Positions 13,813 to 64,000 of a stretch of DNA of 64,000 bases are shown here, in pieces. The DNA comes from Fusobacterium varium (lineage in GTDB: Bacteria > Fusobacteriota > Fusobacteriia > Fusobacteriales > Fusobacteriaceae). How positions within the stretch are numbered: the first letter of the stretch is position 1; every line of letters starts with the position of its first letter. The DNA is taken from the NCBI GenBank assembly GCA_002356455.1, contig AP017968.1:2418001-2482000 (forward strand). Reading direction: 5' to 3'. The notes beneath the pieces were generated by a model that saw only the letters and a list, made by a program, of their open reading frames with translations, made no database searches and was not told where the DNA came from. Both the position numbers and the translations under genes were made by a program.

Positions 13813-13813
13813 A

Positions 13814-14548: not shown

Positions 14549-14574
14549 ACTAACCCCACTTAATTAATATAATT

Positions 14575-14607
14575 AAAAAGCTGACCTAAATCATTCGATC
14601 AGCTTTT
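14575..14607 (-). terminator. Terminator of efp
   Basis: A stem AAAAGCTGA / TCAGCTTTT with a 14-base loop, immediately after efp; the minus-strand side ends in a T run. Confidence 0.8.
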
Positions 14608-14617
14608 ATTTAAAAAA

Positions 14618-15181: not shown

Positions 15182-15191
15182 TTTTGACCTC

Positions 15192-17298: not shown

Positions 17299-17456
17299 TT
17301 TTCCCTCTCTGATATTTTGCTTTGATGTAATATTATATCATATTTTTGATAACTTCATTCAAATTTTTTTGTTTTTTAAAGATAAAGTTTTAAAAAAATA
17401 AATAAGTAAATATTTAAATATAACCTAAACTTCTATTGCTAAATTGTCAATAACTA

Positions 17457-17465
17457 TGGTATAAT
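17457..17465 (+). promoter_or_regulatory. Extended -10 promoter of the ABC-F gene
   Basis: TGGTATAAT lies 55 bases before the ATG and points away from the divergent OYE-earP-efp unit. Confidence 0.55.
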
Positions 17466-17520
17466 ATAATGATTTTTTGAATACGTATAAAAGTAAAATT
17501 TATAGGAGGATATATATTAA

Positions 17521-19146
17521 ATGATAGCAACTAGTAATCTTGGAATGAGATTTTCTGGAAGAAAACTATTTGAAGATGTCAATCTTAAATTTACTCCTGG
17601 AAACTGTTATGGTCTTATAGGAGCAAATGGTGCTGGAAAATCTACATTTGTTAAAATACTTTCTGGAGATCTTGATCCTACAGAAGGGGAAATAATTTTT
17701 GATAAAAAAAATAAAAGAATGGCAGTATTAAAGCAGGATCACTTTGCCCATGAAGAAGATGAAGTTCTTAATGTAGTTCTTATGGGACACAAAAAACTTT
17801 GGGATATCATTGTAGAAAAAAATGCTATATATGCAAAAAGCGAATTTACTGATGAAGATGGTTTGAGAGCTGCTGAATTAGAAGGAGAATTTGCTGAATT
17901 AAATGGTTGGGAAGCTGAAACAGAAGCTGAAACTCTTTTAATGGGATTAGGAATAGGAATTGAAGCTCATCATAAACTTATGAAAGAGCTTACTGAACCT
18001 GAAAAAGTTAAAATTCTTTTAGCACAGGCTTTATTTGGACAGCCAGATGTACTTCTTTTAGACGAACCTACCAATGGACTTGATATAAAAGCTATATCTT
18101 GGCTTGAAAACTTTCTTATGGATTTAGATAATACTACTGTTATAGTTGTATCACATGACAGGCACTTTTTAAATAAGGTGTGCACTCACATTACAGATAT
18201 AGACTATGGAAAAGTTAAAATGTACGTAGGAAACTATGATTTCTGGTATGAATCAAATGAGCTTATGGTAAAACTTCTTTCTTCTAAAAATAAAAAAATT
18301 GAACAAAAAAGACAAGAACTGCAGGAATTTATTGCCAGATTTAGTGCTAATGCCTCTAAATCTAGACAAGCTACTTCAAGAAAGAAACTTCTTGATAAAC
18401 TTCAATTAGAAGATATGCAGGTATCAAATAGAAAATATCCATTTATTGAGTTCAAGCAGGAAAGAGAAGCTGGAAACAACCTTCTTAAAGTTGAAAACCT
18501 TACTAAAACTATTGATGGAGTTAAAATACTTGACAATCTTACATTCACTATCAATACAGGAGATAAAGTTGTTTTCCTTGCTAAAAATGATATTGTTAAA
18601 ACAACACTTTTATCTATACTTGCAGGAGAGATGGAGGCTGATTCTGGTTCATATACTTGGGGGGTAACTACAACTCAAGCTTATATGCCTAAAGATAATA
18701 CTAAATTTTTTGAAAACAAAAATCTTAATCTTATAGACTGGTTAAGACCATATTCACCTGACCAGCATGATGTTTTTGTAAGAGGATTCTTAGGAAGAAT
18801 GCTTTTCACTGGTGAAGATGCAATGAAAAGTTGTACAGTTCTCTCAGGAGGAGAAAAAGTAAGATGTATGCTTTCTAGAATGATGCTTACAAATGCTAAT
18901 GTTCTTATGTTTGATAACCCTAATGACCACTTGGACCTAGAATCTATCACATCATTGAACAAAGCTCTTATCAATTTTAAAGGAACTATCCTATTTGGAG
19001 CTCATGACCATGAATTTATTCAAACAGTAGCTAATAGAATTATTGAGATAACTCCTAATGGAATCCTTGATAAAATGATGAGTTATGATGAATATCTTGA
19101 AGATGAAAATGTACAGCAAAGATTAGAAGAATTATACGCTGAATAA
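17521..19146 (+). CDS. ABC-F family ATPase, YbiT-like, with degenerate second site
   Basis: A 541-residue duplicated ATPase without membrane segments, colinear with E. coli YbiT, including the linker motif SRFSANASKSRQATSR-like at about 276-290. NBD1 has a full Walker A (GANGAGKST), Walker B (LLLDEPTNGLD) and SHDRHF, but its signature is LTEPEK. NBD2 keeps the signature LSGGEKVR, but its Walker A is AKNDIVKTT (three glycines lost), its Walker B is MFDNPNDHLD (catalytic Glu replaced by Asn) and SHD has become AHD. Because sites form between Walker A/B of one half and the signature of the other, one composite site is intact and the other lacks all key elements. It probably acts on ribosomes. 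GGAGG lies about 10 bases before the ATG. Confidence 0.9.
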   Translation: MIATSNLGMRFSGRKLFEDVNLKFTPGNCYGLIGANGAGKSTFVKILSGDLDPTEGEIIFDKKNKRMAVLKQDHFAHEEDEVLNVVLMGHKKLWDIIVEKNAIYAKSEFTDEDGLRAAELEGEFAELNGWEAETEAETLLMGLGIGIEAHHKLMKELTEPEKVKILLAQALFGQPDVLLLDEPTNGLDIKAISWLENFLMDLDNTTVIVVSHDRHFLNKVCTHITDIDYGKVKMYVGNYDFWYESNELMVKLLSSKNKKIEQKRQELQEFIARFSANASKSRQATSRKKLLDKLQLEDMQVSNRKYPFIEFKQEREAGNNLLKVENLTKTIDGVKILDNLTFTINTGDKVVFLAKNDIVKTTLLSILAGEMEADSGSYTWGVTTTQAYMPKDNTKFFENKNLNLIDWLRPYSPDQHDVFVRGFLGRMLFTGEDAMKSCTVLSGGEKVRCMLSRMMLTNANVLMFDNPNDHLDLESITSLNKALINFKGTILFGAHDHEFIQTVANRIIEITPNGILDKMMSYDEYLEDENVQQRLEELYAE

Positions 19147-19156
19147 ATTAATAACT

Positions 19157-19190
19157 ATCCTGCTTTTATAAAAATATTAGCAGGATTTTT
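19157..19190 (+). terminator. Terminator of the ABC-F gene
   Basis: A stem ATCCTGCT / AGCAGGAT (19157-19164 with 19179-19186) followed by a T run. Confidence 0.8.
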
Positions 19191-19227
19191 TATTTGTTAT
19201 AAAAGTAAAAAAGATGATTTTAAAAGA

Positions 19228-19372
19228 GACCATTGCAAATCAGTAATTTATTTTACTGATTTTGTAACCTTTTTTCTTTTGCTATAAAAAATAGAAACCA
19301 TTTTATAAATTTCTTTTAATTTTTATTTTAAAAGAAAAAGCTGACTTGAATTTTTTCATGTCAGCTTTTTTA
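19228..19372. repeat. MITE-like relic of the IS1182-type element
   Basis: This non-coding stretch matches both ends of the IS1182-type element at 46.1-47.9 kb. The left part (TTGCAAATCAGT... and TATAAAAAATAGAAA...TTTTATAAATTTCT) follows the first ~110 bases of that element. The right part (AAAAGAAAAAGCTGAC... GTCAGCTTTTTT) follows its right-end hairpin. The transposase is missing and the outermost terminal repeats have decayed. It is best read as an old internally deleted copy. Its right hairpin now ends the nucleoside kinase transcript. Confidence 0.6.
19335..19370 (-). terminator. Terminator of the nucleoside kinase gene (IS-derived)
   Basis: A perfect stem AAAAAGCTGAC / GTCAGCTTTTT. The same hairpin occurs near the right end of the IS1182-type element (47797-47834). 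Confidence 0.8.
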
Positions 19373-19405
19373 GTAATAGTAATTGAACTATTCTAACCCT
19401 TTTGA

Positions 19406-20869
19406 TTAATACTTATAAAAAATACTGTCTCCAATAAATTCTTTAAGTATTGAATCATCAGGAATATATTTTGAATCTATATCAACAAAACAATACAAGA
19501 ATTTCATAAGTCTTTTTGCTTCTTCATAATATGGACTGTCTATTTTTACTTTTATTAATTCCCTTATAGCATATCTTTTTAACACTCCTAATTCATATAC
19601 TAAATTAGAATTAAACATCACATCTGCATCTTCCTGAAATGGAAAAATATATTTTTCTTCTCCTTTTCTTACAGAATTCCACATAGCAATAGTTTCTTCT
19701 ACAAACGTATCTCTAGCCATACTATCTCTTACAAGACGTCTTATTTTTCTTACATCACTTGTTGCTATTCTGTTATGTCTGTCTATATTCAGCTGCGTTA
19801 AACAGCTTACATATATTTTAAATTTATTTTTCTTAGGTATAGATGCAGTTAATTTCTCATTAAGCCCATGTATTCCCTCTATGATTATAAGTCCGTGTTC
19901 TGGAACTTTCATCATTTTCCCTTTTTTCTCTCTCTCTCCACTTACAAAGTTATACTCTGGTATCTCCACTTCTTTCCCAGCTACAAGTTCTTTTAAGTTT
20001 TCATTCAATAATTTCAAATCAAGAGCATCAATAGTTTCATAATCCTTGTTTCCATCTTCATCAAGAGGAACATTTTTTCTTCCAATATAATAGTCGTCTA
20101 AAGATATTACTATTGGATTTATTTCATTAGCCCTTAAATGAAGGTATAATCTCTTACTGAATGTTGTTTTTCCAGAAGATGAAGGTCCTGCAATAGTTAC
20201 TAATTTTATATCTTTATTTTCTGTTATTTGATCTGCTATTTTACTAATATTCTTATGATGAAGAGCCTCATTTATTCTTATTAACTCTGGAATTTTCCCT
20301 TTTAATATTTTTTCATTTAATGTTCCAATAGTAGATACATCTAAGATACAATTCCATTGCCCTGTTTCCTGAAATACTTTTGCCATTTTAGGATTATCTA
20401 TATATGGAGGAAGTTCATCAGGAGTTTTTGTTGGATATTTTATTAAAAAACCACCATTATATAAAGAAATTTCATATAATTTTACATTTCCAGTTGAAGG
20501 ATATGGTTCCTCATAAATGAAATCAAAATATCCATCTATTTCATATTCCATCATTCCCGTCCATCCAGAATTTTCAAGTAATGTTCTTATGTCTTTTCTT
20601 AATATGCTTTTACTTTTACTTTTTAGAGTATCATTATCTTGACATATCAGTACTATTGGGTAATCGTTTTCTATAATTTCCTTCATTTTTTTATCTATTT
20701 TTTTAATACCTTCTTCAGTTATTTTTTCTCCCTTAGTTACAGTTCCATATGTTCCATTATTTAAAGAATGCTCTATTTCTACTTCAATATCTGGAAAAAT
20801 TTCATAGACTGCTTTTAGAAAAACAAGTTTTAAAGTTACTGCATACTTTCTTGGATCAAACGCTATCAT
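19406..20869 (-). CDS. Nucleoside (uridine-type) kinase with N-terminal extension
   Basis: About 487 residues. The C-terminal half is a uridine kinase/PRK-like P-loop domain: Walker A AGPSSSGKTTF (near residue 228), LDDYY (near 260), a lid region and a Walker-B-like LIIIEGIHGLN (near 331). The N-terminal ~200 residues are a separate conserved extension (typical of the 'nucleoside kinase' family of Firmicutes and fusobacteria, where it resembles a tRNA-synthetase-type accessory domain). The frame has an ATG 12 bases further upstream, but GAGGTG places the start at 20869. Phosphorylation of uridine/cytidine or a related nucleoside is expected; actual substrate uncertain. Confidence 0.85.
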   Translation of the reverse strand: MIAFDPRKYAVTLKLVFLKAVYEIFPDIEVEIEHSLNNGTYGTVTKGEKITEEGIKKIDKKMKEIIENDYPIVLICQDNDTLKSKSKSILRKDIRTLLENSGWTGMMEYEIDGYFDFIYEEPYPSTGNVKLYEISLYNGGFLIKYPTKTPDELPPYIDNPKMAKVFQETGQWNCILDVSTIGTLNEKILKGKIPELIRINEALHHKNISKIADQITENKDIKLVTIAGPSSSGKTTFSKRLYLHLRANEINPIVISLDDYYIGRKNVPLDEDGNKDYETIDALDLKLLNENLKELVAGKEVEIPEYNFVSGEREKKGKMMKVPEHGLIIIEGIHGLNEKLTASIPKKNKFKIYVSCLTQLNIDRHNRIATSDVRKIRRLVRDSMARDTFVEETIAMWNSVRKGEEKYIFPFQEDADVMFNSNLVYELGVLKRYAIRELIKVKIDSPYYEEAKRLMKFLYCFVDIDSKYIPDDSILKEFIGDSIFYKY

Positions 20870-20985
20870 AAAACACCTCATTTTTTTATATTTTAGTTTT
20901 TTAACAATTTTTCAAGAATATTATTAAATACTTGTTTATATTATAGCAGATATTTTTAAAATTTTTCTATTTTTTAGATAAAAAA

Positions 20986-21088
20986 GAGAATGATTTATAT
21001 AGAAATATAATTTTAGAACTTCTTAAATACAAATATTTACTATTTATTTTCAAGTTACTAAAATTTAATTCACTATTTAGTCATTCTC
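20986..21088 (-). terminator. 103-base imperfect palindrome after spmB
   Basis: The two arms (GAGAATGA... and ...TCATTCTC) can pair along most of their length, with an inner segment TTTTAGTAACTT / AAGTTCTAAAA and a central AAATA/TATTT palindrome. On the minus strand the structure ends in TCATTCTC plus a T run, so it can serve as the terminator of spmB. The length is far greater than needed for termination, suggesting a small mobile palindromic repeat. Confidence 0.6.
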
Positions 21089-21102
21089 AATTACTTTTTA
21101 TT

Positions 21103-21642
21103 TTATCTAAACATTAAATTACATATCCATACTGATGTCAGTAGTCCAGCCACATCTGCTAAAAGTCCTGCTGCTACTGCATGTCTTGTCTTTCTTATAC
21201 TTACTGCTCCAAAATACACTGCCAGTACATAGAATGTTGTTTCTGTTGATCCCATCATTGTTGAAGCTATTCTTCCTATTAATGAATCTGGTCCGTATGT
21301 CAGCATAAGGTCATTCATTATTCCTGTTGCTCCTCCTCCTGACAATGGTCTCATTATTGCCATTGGCAATACTTCTCCCGGCATTCCTATCATTGAAAAT
21401 ATTGGATCCAATACTTTCATCATTATATCTATACATCCTGAGCTTCTGAATATTCCTATTGCTACCAGCATTGCCACTAGAAATGGTATTATTCTTATTG
21501 CTGTTGTAAATCCTTCCTTTGCTCCCTCACAAAATACTTCATATACTCTTACCTTCTTTACAAAGAACGCATATCCTACTATTATAAATATTATCATTGG
21601 TATTGCATAAAGCGATATTTGATTCATTATCATTACAAACAT
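21103..21642 (-). CDS. spmB: Spore maturation protein B-like (nucleoside recognition domain)
   Basis: A 179-residue membrane protein with the Gate/nucleoside-recognition domain, including PFLVAMLVAIGIFRSSGCID (about 53-72), MRPLSGGGATGIM (about 97-109) and a glycine/serine-rich STMMGSTETTFYVLAVYFG segment. SpmB in Bacillus affects spore core dehydration together with SpmA. AGGGAGGA lies before the start, and spmA is 30 bases upstream. Non-sporulating bacteria also carry spmAB pairs, so a general transport or envelope role is more likely than sporulation here. Confidence 0.88.
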   Translation of the reverse strand: MFVMIMNQISLYAIPMIIFIIVGYAFFVKKVRVYEVFCEGAKEGFTTAIRIIPFLVAMLVAIGIFRSSGCIDIMMKVLDPIFSMIGMPGEVLPMAIMRPLSGGGATGIMNDLMLTYGPDSLIGRIASTMMGSTETTFYVLAVYFGAVSIRKTRHAVAAGLLADVAGLLTSVWICNLMFR

Positions 21643-21672
21643 TTTCTATTCCTCCCTCATCTGTTTTATTTC

Positions 21673-22269
21673 TTAAATTTCTTCTCTTTTAAATGATGGT
21701 AACTTTTGCAGAATTTTACAAGCTATTATTCCAACAGTTGTCGAAACTATTGTCGCAACTATTGTTGGAGCTATAACCTCTGCTGCATTTGCTGAACCTG
21801 CTGCTGTTCTGTATGCTATTACACTTGAAGATATAAGAGTTACAGATGAAGTATTTATTGCTAAAAACATTACCATTGCATTTGATGCCTCATCCTTATT
21901 TGTATTCAGTTCCTGTAATTCCTGCATGGCTTTTATTCCAAGAGGTGTCGCTGCATTTCCAAGTCCAAAAAAGTTTGCTGCCATATTGGCAACCATACTT
22001 CCCATTGCTGGATGATCTGCTGGTACTTCTGGAAATAATCTTATCATAAGAGGCTTCATTGCTTTTCCCATAGCCTTTACCAATCCTGCCTCTTCAGCTA
22101 TCTTCATAAGTCCAAGCCACAATGCCATTACCCCTACCAGTCCTATTGATATCTCCACTGCCGTTCCTGCTGAAGATATTGCTGAGTCTGTCACTGCCTG
22201 AATCTTTCCAGTAAATATAGATACTACCACTCCAATAATTATCATTCCACACCAAATTGCATTAATCAT
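21673..22269 (-). CDS. spmA: Spore maturation protein A-like (nucleoside recognition domain)
   Basis: A 198-residue membrane protein with the partner Gate domain. It opens MINAIWCGMIIIGVVVSIFTG and contains VGVMALWLGLMKIAEEAGL (about 44-62), DHPAMGSMVANMAANFFGLGNAATPLG (about 80-106, family hallmark) and a C-terminal hydrophobic pair. AGGAGG precedes the ATG. Co-transcribed with spmB. IS copy B starts 187 bases upstream of its start codon and may have separated it from its original regulatory region. Confidence 0.88.
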   Translation of the reverse strand: MINAIWCGMIIIGVVVSIFTGKIQAVTDSAISSAGTAVEISIGLVGVMALWLGLMKIAEEAGLVKAMGKAMKPLMIRLFPEVPADHPAMGSMVANMAANFFGLGNAATPLGIKAMQELQELNTNKDEASNAMVMFLAINTSSVTLISSSVIAYRTAAGSANAAEVIAPTIVATIVSTTVGIIACKILQKLPSFKREEI

Positions 22270-22455
22270 AATCTTTCCTCCTGAATGTTTTGGTTCATAT
22301 TATTTGTTCTACATTATATTTTATCAAATTTTTTAGAATTTTCTATCAAACAAAATAAATATTTATTTGTTCATATTTTTATTAAAAATACTATGAAATT
22401 AAATAATTTTCTTAAAAATATAATTCATATTTTATGTATAAAAAATAATCTGCTG

Positions 22456-23896
22456 TATAAAAAAAGCTGAGTAACATTTAAAAAAAATGTTTTACTCAGC
22501 TCTCTTTTTTGTATAATATAGTTACCACCCTAATTATACAAAGGAGACATTCATGCAAATCAAACATATTATCTCTAAAGTCAATATAACAAATCTTTTA
22601 GGTAAAATCAAGAAATATTTTAAAAATGAACATTTTGAGGATGTTAAACAGACTATTCAAAAATTCTTAGCTTGTTCTATTGATAAATCTTTTCTCTCTC
22701 TTCAATGCCCTAAGTGTCATGATGCGCATAAAATTAAAGTTACTTGTAAATCTAGATTTTGTCCTTCCTGCGGTAAACGTTATTCTGCTGTTTGAACTGA
22801 AAAAACTTCCACTTCTCTTATTGATGTTAAACATAGAAGTGTCCTTTTTACTATTCCTGAAGAACTTAGAATGTTTTTCTTCTATGATAGAGACCTTTTA
22901 ACTAAGCTTGCTTATGCTGTTAATGATATTTTTAAATATCAATTTCATAACATTAAAGCAAAAAATCAAAGAATTCATAAAATTTCAAAATATTCCTCTA
23001 AATACTTTACTAACTCAGATATCATTCATTATGGATTGATTACTGTTATTCATACCTTTGGGCGCGATCTTAAATGGAACCCTCATATTCATGCTATTGT
23101 TACTTTAGCTGGATTCAATAAAAACTTCCAATTTCTTGAAAAAAAATATTTTCATGTCAATTCCATTGCTGGACAATGGAAAAAAATGGTTATTGATATT
23201 GTTAAATCTGGAAATTATGACAAGCCTGAAATTAAAGCTAAAGCTTATGCTGCTACTAACTACCTTTATCGCAAAAATACAAGATTCTTTTTCAATGTTG
23301 CAAAAAATGATTTAAATAATAATATTTATGCAATTAAATATATTGGCAGATATCTGTCAAGAGCTCCTATCGCAGAATATAAAATTATTGATTTCTATGA
23401 TAATAAGGTTACTTTCTATTATGAAAGTCTTGCTGATGATAAACAAAGAATTGAGCTTACTTTAGATGCAGAAACATTTCTTTCTAAATTAATTATTCAC
23501 ATTCCCCCTAAACATTTCAAAATGATTAGGTGCTTTGGAATCTATTCTAGAAATATTAAATCAGAACTTAAAAATATCATGAAATTCATGAGAAAATATG
23601 TCTCTAAATATTCCAATTCTACTTTTTATCAACTTGAAATATGGAAAGCTTTTGGAGTAAATCCTTTTTATTGTTTTAAATGTAATGCCAGAATGAAAGT
23701 TAAAAAAATATCATATTTTAATATACATACAGGCTCCATTTGCTGGAAAGAATATCGCTAAACAGCTGATTAACAATCAGCTGTTTTGTGCTGTCAATTT
23801 TAATCTTATTCAATTAATATATCTAATATGAATACAAAATAATTAACATTTTTTATTTTTTCAACAAATTTATCAAATTATAATTTCCTAAGAAAT
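22456..23896 (+). mobile_element. IS91-type element, copy B (1441 bp)
   Basis: Same length and orientation as copy A, with about 15 substitutions spread over 1441 bp. It lies between the 5' side of spmA and the 3' end of the dpp operon. Its right end abuts the dppF terminator hairpin, just as copy A abuts the EcsC-like gene's terminator. No target duplication is seen. The two copies form a 10.1-kb direct repeat pair. Confidence 0.85.
22553..23761 (+). pseudogene. IS91-type Y2 transposase with in-frame TGA (copy B)
   Basis: 403 codons, with TGA at codon 81 (22793-22795), identical in position and flanking codons to copy A. Zinc-binding domain, HUH motif NPHIHA and Y-IGR-Y pair are intact. Differences from copy A include I/V, N/K, E/D, V/I, G/A, A/T, V/A and R/C changes; most of the substitutions alter amino acids, which suggests relaxed selection after copying. 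The copies therefore probably descend from an ancestor that already carried the TGA. Confidence 0.85.
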
Positions 23897-52185: not shown

Positions 52186-53010
52186 TTATCCACTTACTCC
52201 ATGGTCAGCCTCATAATATACAGGAACAAATTTATTGTCATCACTTTTATATCCCCAACATCTTATTTTTTGATTAATTCTATATTTATGTAGTTTTACT
52301 GTTTTTTCTAAAGCTATATAAAAATTTTCACTTCTATAAATATCCGCTGGTGGAGTTGTAAATCCATTAAAATCTTCACAATCCTCTCTTTTTTCATTAT
52401 TTAAGCAATCTTTTACAAATTCAACTATTTTATCATCTGGTATAGAATTTAATAATTTCTCATTTTCAATAAACTTATAATTTTTGAATTCATAATGTTT
52501 CAAAAAAACTTCAAAATTTATAACATCACAAAAAAAGAGAATTTCTAATAATTTATTTTTTTCTTGAACATTTTTTATTATAATTTCTTCTATTGATCCT
52601 TCCTCACAAGAATTTTCTTTTCTAATACTTGTATCACAATCATTTAAAAATGAAAAAATAATTTTATCTCTTTCACTAGCTTCAGCAATTCCATAATTTT
52701 CTTTTTCATTTGTCCATTCAGAATGGTAATAATGGACTTTTGTTTGTTTTGAAGTAAGATCCCAATATGGTGGTTTTAGTAACTTTGCTAAATACAATTT
52801 TATTCTTTTTACATGGTCATCTCTTGAATCAGTTAAAATATTTGACCAAGTTTTCCCATCAATATTAGTTTTATAATTATAACAGTCACTTTTCTTCAAT
52901 AAAACAATTTCATCTAATTTTTCATTTAATTTTAAAATGCTTATATATCCTTTTAACTCTTTAAATTCACTTATATTTTTAATAGAAAGTTCATTCAATA
53001 TAATTTCCAT
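52186..53010 (-). CDS. Unknown protein, third gene of a DUF262/ATPase operon
   Basis: A 274-residue soluble protein with no family recognised. It is rich in Lys/Glu/Asn; features seen are several cysteines (CYNYK, CDTS, CEEG, FFCDV, CLNN, CEDF, RCWGY), a central acidic stretch and the C-terminal WGYKSDDNKFVPVYYEADHG. GGAG precedes the ATG. It follows the ATPase gene by 8 bases and is surely co-transcribed, so it is probably a dedicated component of the same system, perhaps effector or substrate. AT content is higher than in the core genes, suggesting acquisition. Confidence 0.65.
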   Translation of the reverse strand: MEIILNELSIKNISEFKELKGYISILKLNEKLDEIVLLKKSDCYNYKTNIDGKTWSNILTDSRDDHVKRIKLYLAKLLKPPYWDLTSKQTKVHYYHSEWTNEKENYGIAEASERDKIIFSFLNDCDTSIRKENSCEEGSIEEIIIKNVQEKNKLLEILFFCDVINFEVFLKHYEFKNYKFIENEKLLNSIPDDKIVEFVKDCLNNEKREDCEDFNGFTTPPADIYRSENFYIALEKTVKLHKYRINQKIRCWGYKSDDNKFVPVYYEADHGVSG

Positions 53011-53018
53011 ATCTTCTC

Positions 53019-54098
53019 CTATAAATCAAGCAATTCATTTAAGTCTAAATCAAATTGCTCAAATAAATCAGCAGTTGGATTTAATATCGTTCCCTCTTCA
53101 TTTATCTCTATTTCACAATGTTGAGTTACATATTCTTTATTCAAACTAAAAAAATTAATAGATACATCATTTTTTTCTATTGATTTTTTATGAACTCCTA
53201 CTCTAATTCCATTAAAAATATGATCACTATGCGTTTCTAAAATAATTTGAACTCCTGCATTGGAAATAAAAATAAAAAATTCAGTTAATAATGACTGAGC
53301 TTTTGGATGTAGATGTATTTCAGGATTCTCTATTAAAACTATATTTCTTTCTTTTGCTGAAAGACATAATACTAAAATTGATACTAAATATCCCAGTCCT
53401 GCTCCAACATTTCTTCCACGAAATTCAAATCCATTTTTAATATAAATTCCTTTAAAAAAATCAGTTTGTCTTATTTTTTCAGTAGCTAAGCCATATCCTA
53501 ATATATAATTTAACCAATAATTTACCTGTCCTGCTAAAGTTTTATCACTTTTATTTTTAATTAATTTTTCATATAATTGTTCATTTTTACTTTTTTCAAA
53601 ATAAGCAATAGTATATTCACCATTAATTCCAACCTTGCAATTTTCTCCAATTTGTTTCTTATAAATATCTTGACTTCCTATTCTATCAGAAGATAAATAA
53701 TGGAAACTAACATTATGTTCTAAATTTTTTTGACATTTATCAAAATAATTCTCAAAAGTAAACCCTATCTCACAATCAATACATCTTTTTTTTAATACTA
53801 TATTTCCATCTTCTGATTCATATATTTCTTTTTTACAATGTATATCTTCAAAATATAAATCCATTTCAATTTTTTTAGGATTAGTTTTATAGTTTCTTAT
53901 TTCTCTAAAATCATCAAAAGATATCAAATCTCCAAATGTGTCTCTAAAAGATGTACATCCTTGTGAAAATAATAATAAAGATTGAATAATTGTTGATTTT
54001 CCAGAAGAATTCCCTCCCACTAATAAATTTAAATTTTTAAATTTTATATCAACTTTATCTATACTTTTATATCCATTTATTTTTAATCTTTTTATCAT
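53019..54098 (-). CDS. AAA/ABC-like ATPase with DUF3696-type C-terminus
   Basis: A 359-residue ATPase: N-terminal IKRLKINGYKSIDKVDIKF, Walker A GGNSSGKST (about 33-41), a central insertion, the signature-like region RNVGAGLGYLVSIL (about 229-242), Walker B IVLIENPEIHLHP (about 253-265), ETHSDHIFNGIR (about 287-298) and a C-terminal ILNPTADLFEQFDLDLNELL, the DUF3696 end. SMC/OLD-like ATPases of this type recur in anti-phage systems as sensors or drivers. The gene overlaps DUF262 by 4 bases (ATGA-type). Confidence 0.82.
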   Translation of the reverse strand: MIKRLKINGYKSIDKVDIKFKNLNLLVGGNSSGKSTIIQSLLLFSQGCTSFRDTFGDLISFDDFREIRNYKTNPKKIEMDLYFEDIHCKKEIYESEDGNIVLKKRCIDCEIGFTFENYFDKCQKNLEHNVSFHYLSSDRIGSQDIYKKQIGENCKVGINGEYTIAYFEKSKNEQLYEKLIKNKSDKTLAGQVNYWLNYILGYGLATEKIRQTDFFKGIYIKNGFEFRGRNVGAGLGYLVSILVLCLSAKERNIVLIENPEIHLHPKAQSLLTEFFIFISNAGVQIILETHSDHIFNGIRVGVHKKSIEKNDVSINFFSLNKEYVTQHCEIEINEEGTILNPTADLFEQFDLDLNELLDL

Positions 54099-55222
54099 AT
54101 ATTACTCCCTAGTAAGTTTTTAATCTTTGAAAACCTTTTTTCAACTTTTGTTTTATTATCTCTATTTCTACTTAAACTTTCCAAAAATTCTTGATCCCCT
54201 ATTAATGTCATTATATATTCTAAATAATATTTTCTATTTTCTCTTAAATATAAATGAGTAAAATATATTATTGTTTCAAATAAGGCCATATTAACAGGAT
54301 TTCTTTTATTAGATTGTGTAGGTAATCTAAAAGCATCTTTATTTTGTAAAGAATATATGGTTTTTATTGCTTGCTCAAAGTCTATCTTAAGTTTTTCTAT
54401 TCTTTCATCATCCAATTTATTCAAATATTTCATTATATGCCCCAAAAATTCATCTATGTCTCCATTATATTCATATTTTTGACCTTCTACTAAAAAATCT
54501 TTATCTTCAAAATAAATATAGAATCCTAAAAATCGCAATATCAAATATCGATCTTTCATCCTAGACTGAATATTATCCCCCAACATTTCTTTTAAATAAT
54601 TATTTTCAGATAATTCTTTTAATAATTTTGTAGATTTTCCTTGATATAATGCATTTCTCATTTCTTGATTGTTAAGTGTTGTTCCTCCTCTATTTACTCT
54701 ATCAAAAATATCGAATAATATTTTATCTGGAGTTGGTGGTTTTATAACTTGAAAGAATAATTGAAAATCCTCAATTTTTGATTGATACATTGGTTCTAAT
54801 TCTCTAAAGTAACACCCATTTAAGTCTTTTAAAATTTTTAAATCTTTTAACTTAAAATCATTGTTTAAAAAACGAAAAAAAGTATTTAATCTTTGCTTTC
54901 CATCAATGATTATATGCGTCCCTTCCTCATCAGAATTTGTATAAATTAATTGTAAAGGAAGCCCCATTATAACACTTTCTATCAATTCTCTTTCTTGATG
55001 TGGTTTCCATACAGTACTCCTTTGAAATTCAGGATCTAATTTAATTTTTCCCTTTTCTTTTCTTCTATTTAATTCAAAAATTGAAAATTGTTCTCTTTCA
55101 ATTTTTATAACAACATTTGGATAATTATTTTCTTCACTTTCGTTTTTTACCTTATTTGGTAACAAATCTTCATCAATATCATCTAACATTTCATCATTAA
55201 TATTTTCATCCAACATTGACAT
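54095..55222 (-). CDS. DUF262 domain protein (ParB/GmrS-like nuclease fold)
   Basis: A 375-residue protein. After an acidic ~35-residue N-terminus it has the DUF262 motifs LDPEFQRSTVWKPHQERELIESVIMGLPL region (about 57-85), IIDGKQRLNTFFRF (about 98-111; ParB-like DGQQR variant) and FDRVNRGGTTLNNQEMRNA (about 166-184). No DUF1524/HNH domain follows, unlike GmrSD type IV restriction enzymes. GGAGAG precedes the ATG. First gene of the three-gene operon. DUF262 proteins commonly act in restriction of foreign DNA. Confidence 0.85.
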   Translation of the reverse strand: MSMLDENINDEMLDDIDEDLLPNKVKNESEENNYPNVVIKIEREQFSIFELNRRKEKGKIKLDPEFQRSTVWKPHQERELIESVIMGLPLQLIYTNSDEEGTHIIIDGKQRLNTFFRFLNNDFKLKDLKILKDLNGCYFRELEPMYQSKIEDFQLFFQVIKPPTPDKILFDIFDRVNRGGTTLNNQEMRNALYQGKSTKLLKELSENNYLKEMLGDNIQSRMKDRYLILRFLGFYIYFEDKDFLVEGQKYEYNGDIDEFLGHIMKYLNKLDDERIEKLKIDFEQAIKTIYSLQNKDAFRLPTQSNKRNPVNMALFETIIYFTHLYLRENRKYYLEYIMTLIGDQEFLESLSRNRDNKTKVEKRFSKIKNLLGSNI

Positions 55223-55373: not shown

Positions 55374-56057
55374 TTAAAAATTATTTTTTAAATCATTTAT
55401 ATAATTATAAAAAGTTTTTCTACTTATTTTATAGTTATCTATAAAATACTTTACATCTTTTTTTCTACTATTTATATATCCATCTATTATTTCATTTTTT
55501 AATACTTCAGGAATTTTTCTTTTAGGCCTTCCCATTTTTTTAATAGTTAATTTCTGACCTTCAGTTATTCTTTTGACAATATCATCTCTTTCTTTTTCTG
55601 ACTGTTCAAAAGCTACTTTTATTTGCTTTCTTAAAATATTTTTTAAAGTTTCTACAATTCCTTTTATCAATGGAGAAAATGTATCATCTATCTCAATATT
55701 TTCTATTTTATCATATATTTCAACCTGACTATTAAAAATCTCTGTATTTAAATATTGTTCATTTAAAAATATTAAATTTATCTTTCTTTTCCAAAGATTC
55801 AAATAGTCATTATATCCTTCTTCTCCATCTCTGCTCATTCTACTGACACTGTCAAAAATGATAGTATCTCCTTCTCTTACAATTTTTATTAATTTTTTCC
55901 ATTCTGGTCTATCTGAAGTTGTTCCAGTGAATTTTTCTTCAAAAAAAATAAGATCTTCCAGCCTTTCTTTATAATATTCTTTTATATTTTTTTCTTGTCT
56001 TTCAAGTTTTTGATCTTTTGTTGATACCCTACAATAAGCATATAAATTTCCAGACAT
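55374..56057 (-). CDS. Serine recombinase (resolvase/invertase family)
   Basis: A 227-residue protein: catalytic Ser12 in LYAYCRVSTKDQ, the second core motif FDSVSRMSRDGEEGYND (near 70-86), a long helix and, after GRPKRKIPE, a C-terminal helix-turn-helix ending in the ISRKTFYNYIND type DNA-reading helix. The size fits resolvases and invertases rather than large phage integrases. GGAG precedes the ATG. Three motif copies in the upstream region (56074-56201) may be its binding sites. It could act on an invertible element or as the mobility gene of the island. Confidence 0.9.
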   Translation of the reverse strand: MSGNLYAYCRVSTKDQKLERQEKNIKEYYKERLEDLIFFEEKFTGTTSDRPEWKKLIKIVREGDTIIFDSVSRMSRDGEEGYNDYLNLWKRKINLIFLNEQYLNTEIFNSQVEIYDKIENIEIDDTFSPLIKGIVETLKNILRKQIKVAFEQSEKERDDIVKRITEGQKLTIKKMGRPKRKIPEVLKNEIIDGYINSRKKDVKYFIDNYKISRKTFYNYINDLKNNF

Positions 56058-58522: not shown

Positions 58523-59698
58523 ATGACATTTTGCACACAAAAATATATAGAAAAAAATAATTATTCTAATGATTTAATTAAAATACAATATAGTCAAAAT
58601 TTAGAAAATGAGTTTTTCAAATATTCTCAAAGTTTTTTTTATACTGCTGAGTTAGGCTTACAGCACTTATGTAATGAAAACATGCATGATATTAGCAAGT
58701 TAGATACTTTTTTCTTTCCTTTAACTTTTCTATATAGACACAGTATTGAACTTTTAATGAAAGCAATAGTTTTTAAATTTATTACAAAAGAAGAAAAAAG
58801 AATTGAATTTTTAAAAAAAAGTTGTCATAATTTAAAAGAAATCTTTAATTATATAAAAAGAGAAAATCTTCTTTCACATGATATTGATCTTTCTAATTGG
58901 CTAGAAAACTACTTTGATAGTATCAATCTAATAGATAAAAATTCTGATTCTTTTAGATATCCTTTTCAAATTAACAAGAATACATTTGAAATTATCCCAA
59001 TATTTGCTAAACAACTTCATATAGATTTAATCAAATTTTCCAAAAAATTTCGTTTTATATATAAGACAATGAAAAAAATATTCTCCCAAGAAAAAGATTT
59101 TTCTTTAGAGTACAACAATCTGAAACCATTATTTCTTGAAGTAGGGGGAGACTACTATTCACAATCAGTAGTAGGCAATGAATATAACAAAATGGATTAT
59201 AGCTTATATATTTTTGCTTATTCAAAATTAAATACATTTTTAAAAACTAATATTAATCTGAATAATAAAAATAAATTATTTTTTCCTATTTGTTATCTTT
59301 ATAGAAATGGAATTGAACTTTCTTTAAAAGGCATATATCTTGAAATATTTCGTGCAGATAATTTAAAAACATTATTAAATAATAAGCATAAAATATTAAA
59401 ACTTTGGAAAGAAATTTTTCCCACTTTAGAAAATATTGCAAAAGAAAATAATTTTAATTTAGTTTTTTTAAAAAAAACAAATAATTATTGTAATCAATTA
59501 AATAATTTTGATCCAGATTCTAGTTTATTCAGATATCCTGTCAGAAAAAATTTATCTCCTTATTTTTCAAGTAAAAAAACTATAGTTTTAAAATATTCTC
59601 ATATAATTAATTCTTTAGAAAAGTTATGTCATTCTTTAGAAGGTATATATGATATGATAATTACATACTCTGAATTTTGCCAAGAACAATATGAATAA
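58523..59698 (+). CDS. Internally duplicated HEPN-like protein (cargo gene)
   Basis: A 391-residue protein made of two related halves of about 190 residues. Each half has FFP-x-x-FLYR-x-x-IEL-x-x-K (FFPLTFLYRHSIELLMKA near 64-81; FFPICYLYRNGIELSLKG near 253-270), then an H-x-L/I-x-x-x-W/F segment and finally D.S.FRYP (near 148 and 331). The helical R..H/N-IEL pattern is reminiscent of HEPN-type proteins, many of which are RNases in toxin or defence systems; no exact R-x4-6-H motif is confirmed. GGAGG precedes the ATG. No database family could be named. Confidence 0.6.
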   Translation: MTFCTQKYIEKNNYSNDLIKIQYSQNLENEFFKYSQSFFYTAELGLQHLCNENMHDISKLDTFFFPLTFLYRHSIELLMKAIVFKFITKEEKRIEFLKKSCHNLKEIFNYIKRENLLSHDIDLSNWLENYFDSINLIDKNSDSFRYPFQINKNTFEIIPIFAKQLHIDLIKFSKKFRFIYKTMKKIFSQEKDFSLEYNNLKPLFLEVGGDYYSQSVVGNEYNKMDYSLYIFAYSKLNTFLKTNINLNNKNKLFFPICYLYRNGIELSLKGIYLEIFRADNLKTLLNNKHKILKLWKEIFPTLENIAKENNFNLVFLKKTNNYCNQLNNFDPDSSLFRYPVRKNLSPYFSSKKTIVLKYSHIINSLEKLCHSLEGIYDMIITYSEFCQEQYE

Positions 59699-59731
59699 AA
59701 ATAAAGGAATTATAAAAAATTCCTCTATTTT
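59698..59731. terminator. Bidirectional terminator between cargo and phage lysis genes
   Basis: A 14-bp stem with one mismatch, AAATAAAGGAATT / AATTCCTCTATTTT, between the convergent stop codons. Confidence 0.7.
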
Positions 59732-59756
59732 TATTCAATTAAAAACTTTTTAATAT

Positions 59757-59984
59757 CTATTTTATTAAATAATCTGTCATTTTTCTCAATTCTGCTTTTA
59801 TTTCTTTTATATCTTCATATAAAGCTTTATTGTCTTCTTTTCTCTGTTGAGATAAAAATTTTACTTGCATTTCATACAAGCTTTTATCTACTTTCTTTTC
59901 CATATGAGCCATAATAAACTTATGATACCCCATAAGAATTCCTCCAACTGTTACAGCTATTTTAAAATACTCTGTCCATTCCAT
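59757..59984 (-). CDS. Small phage membrane protein (XhlA/spanin-like)
   Basis: A 75-residue protein with one N-terminal hydrophobic helix (about 7-20) and a charged coiled coil (about 33-75). This build fits hemolysin XhlA-type or other lysis-accessory proteins next to holins. AAGGAG precedes the ATG, and it directly follows the holin-like gene. Assignment rests on size, topology and position. Confidence 0.6.
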   Translation of the reverse strand: MEWTEYFKIAVTVGGILMGYHKFIMAHMEKKVDKSLYEMQVKFLSQQRKEDNKALYEDIKEIKAELRKMTDYLIK

Positions 59985-59995
59985 TTATCTTCTCC

Positions 59996-60334
59996 TTAGT
60001 TTCCTATTTTCTTATCAAAATGTTTCTTACCTAAAATAACTGCTCCTAAACTTCCTACAAGTGCTGTTAATTCTCCAGGTATAGGAAGGCTATATATTTG
60101 TATTCCTGTAAAAGCAGAAATATAAGGAGTTATTATATGATGAAATATTACTAATGTACTATAGACATAAAATAAATGTAATATTCCTCCTTTTTCTAAA
60201 AGTGAAGAAAATACTTGCAGTCTCTGCTTTTCTACATCTGCCATAATTTTATTCACTTCATCAGGTTGTAGATATTTTTTTAAAATATCAGGTAAAAAAT
60301 TACTAACTATATTTAAAACAGTTTTCTTAAACAT
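59996..60334 (-). CDS. Phage holin-like protein
   Basis: A 112-residue protein: an amphipathic N-terminal part (about 1-45) and two or three hydrophobic segments (about 52-72, 82-102), with a basic C-terminal KKHFDKKIGN. Size and position between endolysin-like and XhlA-like genes fit a holin (3TM type). AGGAGG precedes the ATG. Sequence motif evidence is weak; the call is by context. Confidence 0.6.
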   Translation of the reverse strand: MFKKTVLNIVSNFLPDILKKYLQPDEVNKIMADVEKQRLQVFSSLLEKGGILHLFYVYSTLVIFHHIITPYISAFTGIQIYSLPIPGELTALVGSLGAVILGKKHFDKKIGN

Positions 60335-60343: not shown

Positions 60344-60913
60344 CTATTTCCAATTATTTTCTATATTGTTATATCTTCTTTTAACATCTTCTGGTCTCTC
60401 TTTTCCCCATTTAAGTCCTAATTTAAAGTTCAAAATATCCTGAGAAGAGAGAAGTTTTTTATTTTTTATAAATCTGTGCATAAGTCCATTTTTACTGATA
60501 TTAAATTGATTGTGATAATCTACTAAATGAACAAATGTCTTTTCATTTTCAAACTCTGGTACTCCTTCAAGACTAGCCACATAATTTACCATCTGTTGTA
60601 TATGTTCCCTGTCAAGCTTGTCTATATCAACCCTGAATAGCTTTAGTCTTTCATTCAAATGTTTTATATCTTTGCCAAGATTCAATAATTTTTCCATATC
60701 CTGATCTGAAAATCCACATATATTTTTTAAAAAGTTTCTTGCCCTTATATTATGTGTCACATCGAACTGACTTCTACCAAAGCTATAACCTGATTTTCCA
60801 CCTGCATAACTGAATTTGCATATAGCATTTTCATTTCCTGATATTTCATTTAAGGTTATTACCCTCATTATTTTTTCTACATTTATATTTTCCATTATTT
60901 GTTTTATATTCAT
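60344..60913 (-). CDS. Phage endolysin-like protein (lysozyme-like fold)
   Basis: A 189-residue soluble protein. An early Glu (VITLNEISGNENA, about 18-30) is followed by a SYAGGKSGYSFGRSQFDVTHN segment (about 35-55), the G-x-S-x-S/Y-FG-x-x-Q-x-D pattern of phage lysozyme-like muramidases. The rest is helical and ends with WKG-like KWGKERPEDVKRRYNNIENNWK. It lies between the radical SAM gene (13 bases upstream) and the holin, the typical place for a lysis gene. Cell-wall cleavage is the likely role; active residues not proven. Confidence 0.68.
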   Translation of the reverse strand: MNIKQIMENINVEKIMRVITLNEISGNENAICKFSYAGGKSGYSFGRSQFDVTHNIRARNFLKNICGFSDQDMEKLLNLGKDIKHLNERLKLFRVDIDKLDREHIQQMVNYVASLEGVPEFENEKTFVHLVDYHNQFNISKNGLMHRFIKNKKLLSSQDILNFKLGLKWGKERPEDVKRRYNNIENNWK

Positions 60914-60926: not shown

Positions 60927-62378
60927 CTAATAGCTTAATTTCTCTAAAAAATATTTATTCACTGAATTTAATAAAGTTGGTGTATGAATCCACATAAAAT
61001 GTTTTTCTTTTAAATTGGTAAGAATCATATCTTTGTCATTTTTAAATATTTCATCAAAGAATAAATTACCTTCTTGATCTATATGAAAAGTATTCTCTAT
61101 ATCACTTGTTAATTTTTCATTTAATATTTTAATATCATATTCCTTACATATGGCTATTACTTGTTCATCTGGATTTTTGATATAAATTGTTCTTTCATCT
61201 GAATTAGTACTTCCTATTATATATTTTAGGAAATGATAGATATTTTTATGTTTTTCATCAAATTCTATATTTACTCTTGCTATTGGAACATTCATATCAA
61301 ACTTTGAAATTAGTTTTGCCCACATTTCTGGCTGTAATGTATCCTTAGTTAATTCTCCATTTTTAAATTTTTCTTTAACACAATTAAAATGAGAGTTATC
61401 AACATCTTTATTAAAAATATATTCTCTCATTTTTTCTTGTGAAAGCTTCTCGTTTTCAAAATCTCTATGTTTATTACACCAGTTAATATCTCCATTACCA
61501 TCAATTGTATACATTATTTGACATTCATTTAATAGGTGATCTTTATCTACAATATGAAAAACTGATTCCATTATTTCTCCCATATCTTTTTCTTTCGTCT
61601 CTTTTTCTGCTTTATTTATCAAATAAGTATATGCTTTCCTTAAAAAAATATTACAGGCTTCAATATATTCTGGTGATTGCTGCTCTGTATAATAAAGAAA
61701 TTTCCCCCTTCTTAAAATATCTTTATATTCATCCTGAATAAGCATAGGATTATTTAGTATTTGTTCTGCAGTTGCTAAAACAGTTGATATTTTAATATCT
61801 TTATCATATTCTCCTCCATTGACTTTATATAAAAATTCTTTATACAATTTAATATTTCTTTGCACAATATCAAATCCACTCTCTTTTTTTCCTATTAAGT
61901 GCCTATTTTTATCATAAACTTCTTTATCATTATCTGTAGAAATCATTATACCCACATAATTTTCATTGATAGATTTCATTTTTATTAGAGTTTCCTTTAC
62001 TTTATCATCAAATATTATCCCATTTGTTGTATAAGTAAGTCCTATTTTATTTCTCTCTTCTAATGAATAATTATTTAAAATATGATCACATATTTTATTT
62101 ATTGCCTCAGTATTTAATGTTGGCTCTCCACCAAAAAAGCATATACATAATTGGGAATATTCATAATCTGGGGTTTGAGTATATTTTAAAAATTTGTCTA
62201 TCCCTGCATCTAAATTTTGAAAACATCTTTTAAACTTTTCTTCTGTATCTAATCTAAAAGGTTTTTTAGCTTTTTGATAACAAAACTCACATCTCAAATT
62301 ACAGCTTTCATCTACCTTTATAAATAAAACAAATGGTTCAAACTTATTATAGTATCTACTTCTTTTTATTAATTTCAT
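60927..62378 (-). CDS. Radical SAM enzyme with Twitch/SPASM-like motif, RiPP-maturase candidate
   Basis: A 483-residue radical SAM protein. The cluster motif is CNLRCEFCYQ (Cys near 27, 31, 34), followed by the GGEPTLN stretch (near 83-89, SAM binding) and a TIM-barrel pattern. Residues about 283-298 show C-x9-G-x4-C (CQIMYTIDGNGDINWC), exactly the first part of SPASM/Twitch auxiliary-cluster domains, and a further Cys in HFNCVKEKF. Peptide-modifying radical SAM enzymes and sulfatase maturases share this design. The ~120-residue C-terminal part is of unknown type. It lies 18 bases after the CxxxE-repeat protein gene, 13 bases before the endolysin-like gene, within the phage late operon. Target most likely the neighbouring peptide (inference). 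Confidence 0.85.
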   Translation of the reverse strand: MKLIKRSRYYNKFEPFVLFIKVDESCNLRCEFCYQKAKKPFRLDTEEKFKRCFQNLDAGIDKFLKYTQTPDYEYSQLCICFFGGEPTLNTEAINKICDHILNNYSLEERNKIGLTYTTNGIIFDDKVKETLIKMKSINENYVGIMISTDNDKEVYDKNRHLIGKKESGFDIVQRNIKLYKEFLYKVNGGEYDKDIKISTVLATAEQILNNPMLIQDEYKDILRRGKFLYYTEQQSPEYIEACNIFLRKAYTYLINKAEKETKEKDMGEIMESVFHIVDKDHLLNECQIMYTIDGNGDINWCNKHRDFENEKLSQEKMREYIFNKDVDNSHFNCVKEKFKNGELTKDTLQPEMWAKLISKFDMNVPIARVNIEFDEKHKNIYHFLKYIIGSTNSDERTIYIKNPDEQVIAICKEYDIKILNEKLTSDIENTFHIDQEGNLFFDEIFKNDKDMILTNLKEKHFMWIHTPTLLNSVNKYFLEKLSY

Positions 62379-62396
62379 TATAGTCTCCTTTATACT

Positions 62397-62825
62397 CTAG
62401 TTTCCGCCTTCTCTATTATTACTTTCATTGCTATTAGATTCTCCAAGATTTGATTCTTTTTTGTTACATTCACTATTATTACATTCACTTCTATTACACC
62501 AATTTTTAACTGATTGAGTAGCATTATAGACTTGTGTAATTTTACTTTGTACCATTAATTCTCCTATAGCAACATTAGTTATACTGTTAGTAACAGAAGT
62601 TGCTCCTATTCTACTTGAATAAGTTTTGAGCCATGTAATCCAATTATTAAAAAGAGAAGCTCTACATACTTCCCCTGTTACTGCTCTTGCACTTCCTGCA
62701 CTTGCTGTTCCCCAAGTAGAAACTATTTGATCTAATCCAGTTTGAATAATATTTACTGAAGCAGCGGTTATTATATCTCCTGCTGCTCTAGCTTCTGTAT
62801 TATATGTTTCTATTCTATTCTCCAT
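62397..62825 (-). CDS. Phage protein with CxxxE pentad tail, candidate radical SAM substrate
   Basis: A 142-residue protein. Residues 1-105 are helical and rich in Ala/Ser/Thr, without a signal peptide or membrane helix. The C-terminus is six consecutive pentads [C/S]-N-x-x-E (residues 110-139): CNRSE, CNNSE, CNKKE, SNLGE, SNSNE, SNNRE, then GGN. CxxxD/E spacing is the hallmark of ranthipeptide core peptides. An upstream in-frame TTG at 62843 exists; the ATG at 62825 is preferred, with GGTGG upstream, overlapping the previous gene's stop by 11 bases. The radical SAM gene follows after 18 bases. A structural phage protein that merely has repeats is the alternative. Confidence 0.75.
   Translation of the reverse strand: MENRIETYNTEARAAGDIITAASVNIIQTGLDQIVSTWGTASAGSARAVTGEVCRASLFNNWITWLKTYSSRIGATSVTNSITNVAIGELMVQSKITQVYNATQSVKNWCNRSECNNSECNKKESNLGESNSNESNNREGGN
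62409..62498 (-). repeat. 15-bp in-frame repeats encoding six pentads
   Basis: Six 15-base units, mostly TGTAAT..../TCTAAT.... and ending GAA, encode the [C/S]-N-x-x-E pentads. The units differ at silent and non-silent positions, so they are not a recent perfect microsatellite. Confidence 0.8.
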
Positions 62826-63153
62826 CTTCTTCCACCCTTTCAAAAGTTATATTTAAATCTTCAATTAAGTTAGAAGTAGTAATATCTTCACCACGTGGAG
62901 TATGGATATATACTTCATGAGATAAATATTTTAAATTATTATAAATCTCTCCATCTATATTTAATTGATTTACACTTTGAATATTCTCTATGTTTAATAT
63001 TCTTCCAGTATTTTCATAATCAACATTTCTAAGCTTTATTACAGTTTTATTAGTATCATTTAAAAATCTAAATGCAAGAGTACTACTTATTGTAAATTCT
63101 CCTATCTTAGTTATTCCTCTTTCTTTACTTATATTATTAAGTTCTATTTTCAT
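62815..63153 (-). CDS. Phage late-region hypothetical protein
   Basis: A 112-residue, mostly beta-strand protein (alternating charged and Ile/Leu/Val residues) with no recognised family. It lies 12 bases after the tail-fibre gene, with AAGGAGG before the ATG, and its stop overlaps the start region of the CxxxE-tail protein. Position suggests a tail or baseplate accessory protein or fibre chaperone. Confidence 0.65.
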   Translation of the reverse strand: MKIELNNISKERGITKIGEFTISSTLAFRFLNDTNKTVIKLRNVDYENTGRILNIENIQSVNQLNIDGEIYNNLKYLSHEVYIHTPRGEDITTSNLIEDLNITFERVEEDGE

Positions 63154-63165: not shown

Positions 63166-64000
63166 TTACCCCCATACAGGGTTATATACTTTTCCAAATC
63201 CTGATATACTTTTAGCTGCTGTTCCTTTTAAATCTCCTGTCATTGTGCTTCCAACCAGTTTTACTGCTGTAGTGTCATTGAAAGTAGTTGGTTTATCTGC
63301 TACATTAGCCCAATTAGTAGGGAAGATTGCTGGCACATTTAATAAATCAGCCCATTTTACACTTACTGCTGTAGTGTCTCCCTTTTCTCCTTTAGGTCCT
63401 TGTATCCCTTGTGGTCCAATAGGAACTATGATATCCTGTGTAGCATTATTTGTTAAGGTTATTGTATAGATATTATTTCCATTGCTATCCTTATTTTTAA
63501 AAGTTATACTTTTTACACTTATTCCAGTATCTCCTTTTGCTCCAGTTAATCCTATATCCCCTTTCTCTCCCTTATCTCCTTTTTCACCTTTTAAAGTAGC
63601 TCTATTATCAACAATATATTTATCCAGTTCTGCTTTTTTACTGCTAGTATGGGAATTTAATTCAACCTTTTCTCCTTCTACAAGCTGATCTATTTCTAAT
63701 TCTTTAGCTGTCACATGATTATTTATTTCTTCTTTTTTACTGCTAGTATGAGTATTCAATTCTTGCTTTTTAGTAGTATTATAAGTATCAAGCTCTCCCT
63801 TTTTAGCTGTTGTATAAGTGGTTAGCTCTCCTTTTTTAATATCAGTATGAGAAGTTAATTCAACCTTCTCTCCTTCTGTAAAATGATCTATTTCTTTTTC
63901 TTTTCCTGTAGTATAGTCATTTATTTCTTCCTTCTTGCTATTAGTATGAGTATTTAGTTCATGTTTTTTTGTTTCTTTATGATTATCTAATTCTAATTTT
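63166..64000 (-). CDS. Phage tail fibre with hendecad and collagen-like repeats (partial)
   Basis: The frame is open from the right edge, giving about 277 visible residues; the N-terminus is outside the window. The first ~132 visible residues are twelve perfect 11-residue repeats of the type K-x-E-[L/I]-[N/D]-x-[H/Y/F]-x-x-x-K, which predict a right-handed (hendecad) coiled coil. Then come collagen-like Gly-x-Y triplets (GEKGDKGEKGDIGLTG), a small domain, a second Gly-x-Y stretch (IGPQGIQGPKGEKGD) and a C-terminal tip ending ISGFGKVYNPVWG. The build is typical of trimeric phage tail fibres. It begins the late gene cluster seen here. Confidence 0.88.
   Translation of the reverse strand, partial: KLELDNHKETKKHELNTHTNSKKEEINDYTTGKEKEIDHFTEGEKVELTSHTDIKKGELTTYTTAKKGELDTYNTTKKQELNTHTSSKKEEINNHVTAKELEIDQLVEGEKVELNSHTSSKKAELDKYIVDNRATLKGEKGDKGEKGDIGLTGAKGDTGISVKSITFKNKDSNGNNIYTITLTNNATQDIIVPIGPQGIQGPKGEKGDTTAVSVKWADLLNVPAIFPTNWANVADKPTTFNDTTAVKLVGSTMTGDLKGTAAKSISGFGKVYNPVWG
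63604..64000 (-). repeat. 33-bp in-frame repeats (hendecads) in the tail-fibre gene
   Basis: Twelve tandem 33-base units, each coding one 11-residue repeat, run from the right edge to about 63604. Repeat unit sequence is conserved at K.E[LI] and variable elsewhere. Confidence 0.8.

Follow-up and report, generated by a model that had tools for sequence, protein, structure and literature searches.

A putative tail-tip modification module in a Fusobacterium varium prophage: a radical SAM enzyme beside a protein ending in six [C/S]NxxE pentads

Why does a prophage of Fusobacterium varium carry a radical SAM enzyme in its tail and lysis operon, and on what does this enzyme act? In the window, by which we mean the whole stretch of 64,000 nucleotides analysed (contig AP017968.1, positions 2,418,001 to 2,482,000), the minus strand encodes, downstream from the tail genes, a 446-aa tail fibre, a 112-aa protein, a 142-aa protein, the 483-aa radical SAM enzyme, a 189-aa presumed lysis gene and two small genes, followed by a hairpin. 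The features of this region are:

63166..64000 (-), 3' part of the gene for the tail fibre (full length in the genome: 446 aa), with a collagen-like stalk and the C-terminus ...KVYNPVWG
62815..63153 (-), 112-aa protein, fold not recognised, overlapping the 142-aa gene by 11 bases
62397..62825 (-), 142-aa probable substrate, predicted to be helical at about residues 20-110, then the pentad tail
62409..62498 (-), six [C/S]NxxE pentads, residues 110-139
60927..62378 (-), 483-aa radical SAM enzyme, Twitch-like, with one auxiliary-cluster motif; C-terminal ~140 aa without known relative
62280..62303 (-), CxxxCxxC of the radical SAM cluster, residues 26-33
61476..61523 (-), C286-x9-G-x4-C301 auxiliary-cluster motif
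61380..61382 (-), C333, the third Cys common to SPASM domains, the other four being missing
60344..60913 (-), presumed lysis gene (189 aa), also conserved in further prophages of the genus, where variable genes precede it
59757..60334 (-), two small genes (112 aa; 75 aa) that may encode holin or membrane proteins
59692..59737 (-), hairpin resembling a terminator, behind the final gene and the sole one between 59500 and 64000

The coordinates and strands of the 142-aa/radical SAM pair were as given in the initial annotation, including the 18 bases between the two ORFs; 13 bases separate the enzyme from the next gene. The tail-fibre context described there was also borne out, as the 446-aa gene has tail fibre, collagen-like matches in PHROGs and a tape measure protein and more structural genes lie farther upstream in the same prophage. 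The product of 60344-60913 had been called endolysin-like, a label which we dropped since it has no convincing Pfam, PHROG or NCBIfam match; it is named a lysis gene from its position. The two small genes had no PHROG match, and the 112-aa protein had neither a family match (Pfam, PHROG, NCBIfam) nor, across 11 other genomes from the genus, any relative.

The 142-aa protein ends in CNRSE CNNSE CNKKE SNLGE SNSNE SNNRE GGN, which agrees with the six pentads, three of them CxxxE, that had been noted previously. The pentads are in register, with Cys at the start of three and Ser at the start of the other three, while the Asn and Glu never vary from one pentad to the next. Over 100,000 shuffles of the whole protein the longest pentad run was of 2; shuffling just the tail, again 100,000 times, gave 3 at most. 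The three CNxxE motifs give the protein the repeated Cys-X3-Asp/Glu feature of PapB-type ranthipeptide precursors. Its structure model contained helices only, at low confidence (pLDDT 50). The protein is probably modified by the adjacent 483-aa enzyme.

The two radical SAM motifs reported earlier, CxxxCxxC and C-x9-G-x4-C, were located at C26/C30/C33 and C286/C301 (C26xxxC30xxC33 and C286-x9-G296-x4-C301), after which only C333 follows. We aligned the enzyme and its copy from a second prophage, described below, with 40 other phage enzymes; the four further SPASM Cys were kept in 38-39 of the 42 sequences and are F, T, L and A in both prophage copies, so the enzyme is Twitch-like and can have no more than one auxiliary cluster. 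Its radical SAM domain starts near residue 17, compared with some 75-115 residues ahead of this domain in aligned bacterial maturases, which leaves no room for an N-terminal recognition domain. The top three NCBIfam models were PapB (67.1 bits, cut-off 340), CcpM (62, cut-off 500) and QhpD (55.4, cut-off 453), and the CXXX-repeat target maturase model TIGR04115 scored 47.9 bits against a cut-off of 350. The CefB model NF038107 was unmatched at E up to 1. An AlphaFold model of the enzyme (pLDDT 64) was good only in the radical SAM core; with this model, Foldseek returned SkfB, the sporulation killing factor maturase, as the best solved structure (E 2.5e-7), followed by structures of anaerobic sulfatase maturases (anSME). 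In a tree the enzyme sits on a long branch leaving an unresolved fork among phage radical SAM enzymes, and searches of GTDB contigs, INPHARED phages, 149 genomes of relatives and plasmids returned distant radical SAM enzymes only. By these comparisons, the enzyme represents a new lineage among the radical SAM enzymes that modify peptides or proteins, outside the named families. It should be noted that its top "phage" matches, MT836133.1 and MT839507.1, were rejected as relatives as they encode SCIFF-type peptide maturases; both are labelled "Bacteriophage sp." and are probably bacterial contigs inside the phage collection, the former also having SecDF-like and other bacterial-type genes.

The initial annotation had filed the cassette with the ranthipeptides and had proposed a comparison of the enzyme with PapB and sulfatase-maturase models. 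PapB was indeed the top model, yet at 67 bits it remained far under its cut-off of 340, the four SPASM Cys and the N-terminal domain are missing, and Ser stands in half of the pentads; the cassette is thus, by family tests, not a ranthipeptide system. Likeness to PapB/PapA (freyrasin; NF047865) lies in a radical SAM enzyme with an auxiliary cluster beside a precursor of repeated CxxxD/E motifs, of which there are six in PapA and six pentads here, and PapB accepts Glu, i.e. CxxxE (PMC9413430). The differences are one auxiliary-cluster motif in place of two, a helical 110-aa part in place of a short leader, and a location in a prophage tail operon. QhpD (TIGR03906), the quinohemoprotein amine dehydrogenase maturase, installs several Cys-Asp/Glu thioethers in a structural protein and not a peptide (PMC8326336), and so provides a precedent for a radical SAM enzyme acting on a structural protein; our enzyme scores 55 of 453 bits with its model, and its substrate and context differ from those seen here. 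SkfB is likewise a Twitch-type RiPP maturase with a single auxiliary cluster, but it carries a recognition domain, and its product is a secreted peptide with one alpha-carbon thioether. CefB, a Cys-every-fifth maturase, shares with our cassette a Cys at each fifth substrate position, here across three repeats.

The search for the same gene pair in other prophages, which had also been proposed, returned one further copy of the cassette, with identical gene order, in a second prophage (IMGVR_UViG_2856193548_000005). Between this copy and the window the enzyme is 97% identical (dN/dS 0.10) and the 142-aa protein 92% (dN/dS 0.34). Since there are just two known copies and they are 92-97% alike, we take them to have a single origin; the enzyme, 112-aa and 142-aa proteins had no close relative in other genomes of the genus, and no relative of the 142-aa protein was found in INPHARED phages or the 149 genomes of relatives. 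Within the pentads, all six amino-acid-changing codons fall at positions 3 and 4 (6/12 codons, compared with 0/18 at C/S, N and E; Fisher p = 0.0016), with silent changes only at positions 1, 2 and 5. The codon of Ser125 is TCA in one copy and AGT in the other, a switch which one substitution cannot make. The confinement of changes to positions 3-4 and the survival of Ser125 through this switch argue that each of C/S, N and E is important, and Ser no less than Cys, within the limits of a comparison of two sequences.

This pattern bears on three other accounts of the cassette. The enzyme could act elsewhere on the 142-aa protein, either at Cys54 or, by non-thioether chemistry such as C-C links, at the Asn or Glu of all six pentads, the Cys then being incidental; this would suit Asn and Glu being invariant in 6/6 pentads and Cys present in 3/6, but C/S is as strictly kept between the two copies as N and E, and we regard it as unlikely. 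Alternatively, the enzyme could be an accessory or defence gene with another substrate, viperin-like for example, and the pentads an ordinary hydrophilic tail. Accessory genes are frequent at prophage ends, this one included, and viperin-type models do give weak scores of 38-40 bits; the viperin model NF038283 reaches 40.4 of the required 180, the auxiliary-cluster motif is present, the gene pair stays together and the pentad constraint is specific for C/S, N and E, all of which make this account quite unlikely. In the third, the enzyme would oxidise pentad Cys and Ser alike to formylglycine in the style of an anSME, yielding reactive aldehydes which could aid adhesion. It would account for C and S sharing one pentad context, in three pentads each, and sits well with the retention of Ser despite TCA -> AGT and with anSME structures being the fold matches just after SkfB. 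However, the sulfatase-maturase model TIGR03942 is unmatched at E up to 1, the four SPASM Cys are missing, the C/S-x-P-x-R motif is absent, and C301 is followed by Asn at the position where anSME has its catalytic Asp; we consider formylglycine formation very improbable.

Three genes matching the PADLOC NsnA, NsnB and NsnC models lie at 52186-55222 (-) of the window, a candidate defence system beside the prophage end.

Homologous presumed lysis genes were found in several prophages of the genus, and the genes preceding them vary from prophage to prophage. In the nearest sister prophage (L038), the fibre aligns with that of the window through its N-terminal part and into the collagen-like stalk; there is then no counterpart of the window's fibre end, 112-aa gene, 142-aa gene or enzyme, and likeness returns at the lysis gene (78%). 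Because L038 differs from the stalk to the lysis gene, the cassette is swapped as part of a variable, host-recognition end of the tail operon. A DNA invertase/resolvase-type gene is present at 55374-56057 (-) of the window, and the second prophage contig keeps it at its end as well (15487-16170); flipping of the cassette by this invertase was considered and rejected, as long, well-matched inverted repeats were not found around the cassette and tail module. Another genome of the genus (L050:2852-4445) encodes a bacterial radical SAM/SPASM enzyme followed by a 60-aa Cys-rich peptide, which resembles an ordinary RiPP cassette.

We also scanned viral contigs for SPASM-type radical SAM enzymes, which returned 78 loci. 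A Cys-array protein, defined by at least 7 Cys in 40 residues within the locus stretch examined, was encoded in 59 of the 78 (60/78 by the script used for the control set) compared with 4/80 random viral loci, near-copies being included among the 78 and the pairing being seen for 43 distinct enzymes. The control loci (n = 80) were picked by random 14-mer from the same collection, with a similar total length. Every enzyme scanned matched TIGR04115 at E < 1e-5 (42/42; best 2.6e-196). Typical arrays read CxGxCxGCxGC, with a Cys each 3 or 4 residues, and many of those in loci L057-L133 are flanked by a conserved helical domain (ItA....LK..VK.E..RR). The families matched just upstream of these cassettes were baseplate, tail and tail-fibre, and the arrays lie mostly behind tail genes; L106 and L073 carry the Cys-bearing stretch within a protein with tail-fibre matches, and in L076 it is in a protein matching a Hoc-like head decoration family. 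In the Salmonella jumbo phage SPN3US (NC_027402.1), two Cys-Gly-Ser array ORFs with ~20 Cys each, plus the start of a third, directly precede the radical SAM genes gp102/gp103 (about 2085-2480, 2497-2900 and from 2902 in L139, the reverse complement of 135174-146313). The annotated gp100 at this place is a different frame, and such array ORFs have likely been missed or misannotated in related jumbo phages too. An xWG end was present in 12/662 ORFs in radical SAM loci and 1/650 control ORFs, a difference noticed post hoc, with near-copies counted, which is only suggestive of a tie between this fibre end and radical SAM cassettes; fibres with this end stand before the cassettes of L058, L066, L072, L080, L093 and L126, and the window's fibre closes with it too.

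These results call for a correction of the earlier statement that no described system of this type was known, as pairs of radical SAM enzymes and Cys arrays are common in phage tail loci and the maturase family TIGR04115 exists at NCBI. Among open-licence PMC papers we found none on radical SAM-modified phage tail proteins or on this pairing. In pelagimyophages, radical SAM cassettes are what differs between two host-recognition clusters (PMC7029224), and the Campylobacter phage literature takes phage radical SAM enzymes to be metabolic (PMC2853527). Campylobacter phage CP220 was rejected as a precedent, its radical SAM region (10371-23066) having no Cys-array genes. The recurrence of the pairing in many unrelated phages hints that phages may broadly modify their own tail parts chemically.

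Like the TIGR04115/phrog_1802-type phage tail loci (e.g. SPN3US gp102-gp103), our cassette has a radical SAM enzyme beside a repeat protein in a tail/host-recognition region with a fibre ending in xWG, and we think that it works in a similar way. We have not filed it as a member because its Cys are few and spaced by 5, Ser stands in half of the pentads, the enzyme is Twitch-type and there is no detectable homology of the helical part. In the phage array loci the SPASM domains are complete, the ExxRR helical domain is conserved and the arrays contain 7-18 Cys per 40 residues, compared with at most 3 Cys in 40 residues here, all three in the tail, and the spacing also differs from the CXXX tetrads of TIGR04115 targets, where it is 4. 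The helical part of the 142-aa protein looks alike to the array domain by eye (GDIITAASVN, AIGELM), but this candidate likeness was rejected: the array-unit HMM scored it no better than random viral proteins or shuffles, and a pairwise match to L132 was unconvincing (hhalign probability 9%).

The initial annotation had proposed that the phage modifies a peptide late in infection, either as a virion part or as a bacteriocin released at lysis. Apart from the ranthipeptide filing, the idea of late-protein modification has gained from the conservation of the pair in a second prophage, within a tail/lysis operon. The bacteriocin branch, in which the modified C-terminal peptide would be cleaved, freed at phage lysis and kill competitors, has gained no positive evidence: the cassette adjoins presumed lysis genes in a late operon, and the families nearest to the enzyme make RiPPs, but a double-glycine cleavage site is absent from it, as are genes for a protease, an exporter and immunity, the slot is exchanged along with the fibre tip, and the arrays of other phages sit on structural-type proteins. 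We judge it distinctly improbable. The virion branch has strong circumstantial support from the other phages, and a virion part is the more likely of the two.

The reading which we favour, at roughly even odds of being correct, is a tail-tip module in which the pentads are modified by the adjacent enzyme, most likely via thioethers. This is suggested by the conserved pair, the constraint on pentads and enzyme, the swapping of the slot with the fibre tip and the phage-wide pairing with Cys arrays. We infer a course that runs from late co-expression, through enzyme action on the pentads and its chemistry, to a place in the virion. The 142-aa protein would be made late, together with the tail fibre, and its helical part would be recognised by the enzyme, perhaps aided by the 112-aa protein or by the enzyme's own C-terminal part. 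Inside the infected cell, the enzyme would then join the three pentad Cys by thioethers, each to the Glu four positions further along or else to the invariant Asn, so that as many as three turns would be stapled. The preference for Cys-to-Glu comes from PapB and QhpD, which are among the nearest characterised families and both form Cys-Asp/Glu thioethers, and from the acceptance of CxxxE by PapB; Cys-to-Asn may also occur, as a link of this kind is made by NxxcA (PMC8326336). The modified protein would finally sit on or near the fibre tip, the cassette forming the distal end of the host-recognition module.

The weak point of the tail-tip reading is that 3/6 pentads carry Ser, which is conserved though incapable of forming a thioether; these pentads may be unmodified spacers, or may be a sign of chemistry of the anaerobic sulfatase-maturase kind, which makes no distinction between C and S. 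The single origin of the two known copies, the lack of significant similarity between the helical part and the phage Cys-array domain, and a Cys density far below that of the arrays also speak against the tail-tip reading.

More broadly, and more tentatively, tailed phages of many groups might have radical SAM enzymes dedicated to modifying the proteins at their own tail tips, as a virion-borne, non-secreted counterpart of RiPPs, of which the pentad form here would be a short C-terminal helix stapled by Cys-Glu thioethers and used in host recognition; we find this possible but somewhat less than probable. If true, radical SAM peptide chemistry would build virions as well as secreted peptides, and many phage radical SAM genes, so far read as metabolic helpers (PMC2853527) or just recorded as host-recognition cassettes (PMC7029224), would have a testable role. 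It would also add a chemical layer to phage host range which is invisible to sequence-based prediction of receptor-binding proteins. The discovery owes its value to the phage-wide pairing no less than to this locus itself, and the pentad form, with three Cys and a small enzyme, offers a compact pair for the bench.

Radical SAM genes were also seen to be clustered in three of the viral loci, with three genes each in L070 and L133 and four in L132. Close to these genes are proteins with CNCNYCT repeats, a further kind of array that reaches 18 Cys in 40 residues.
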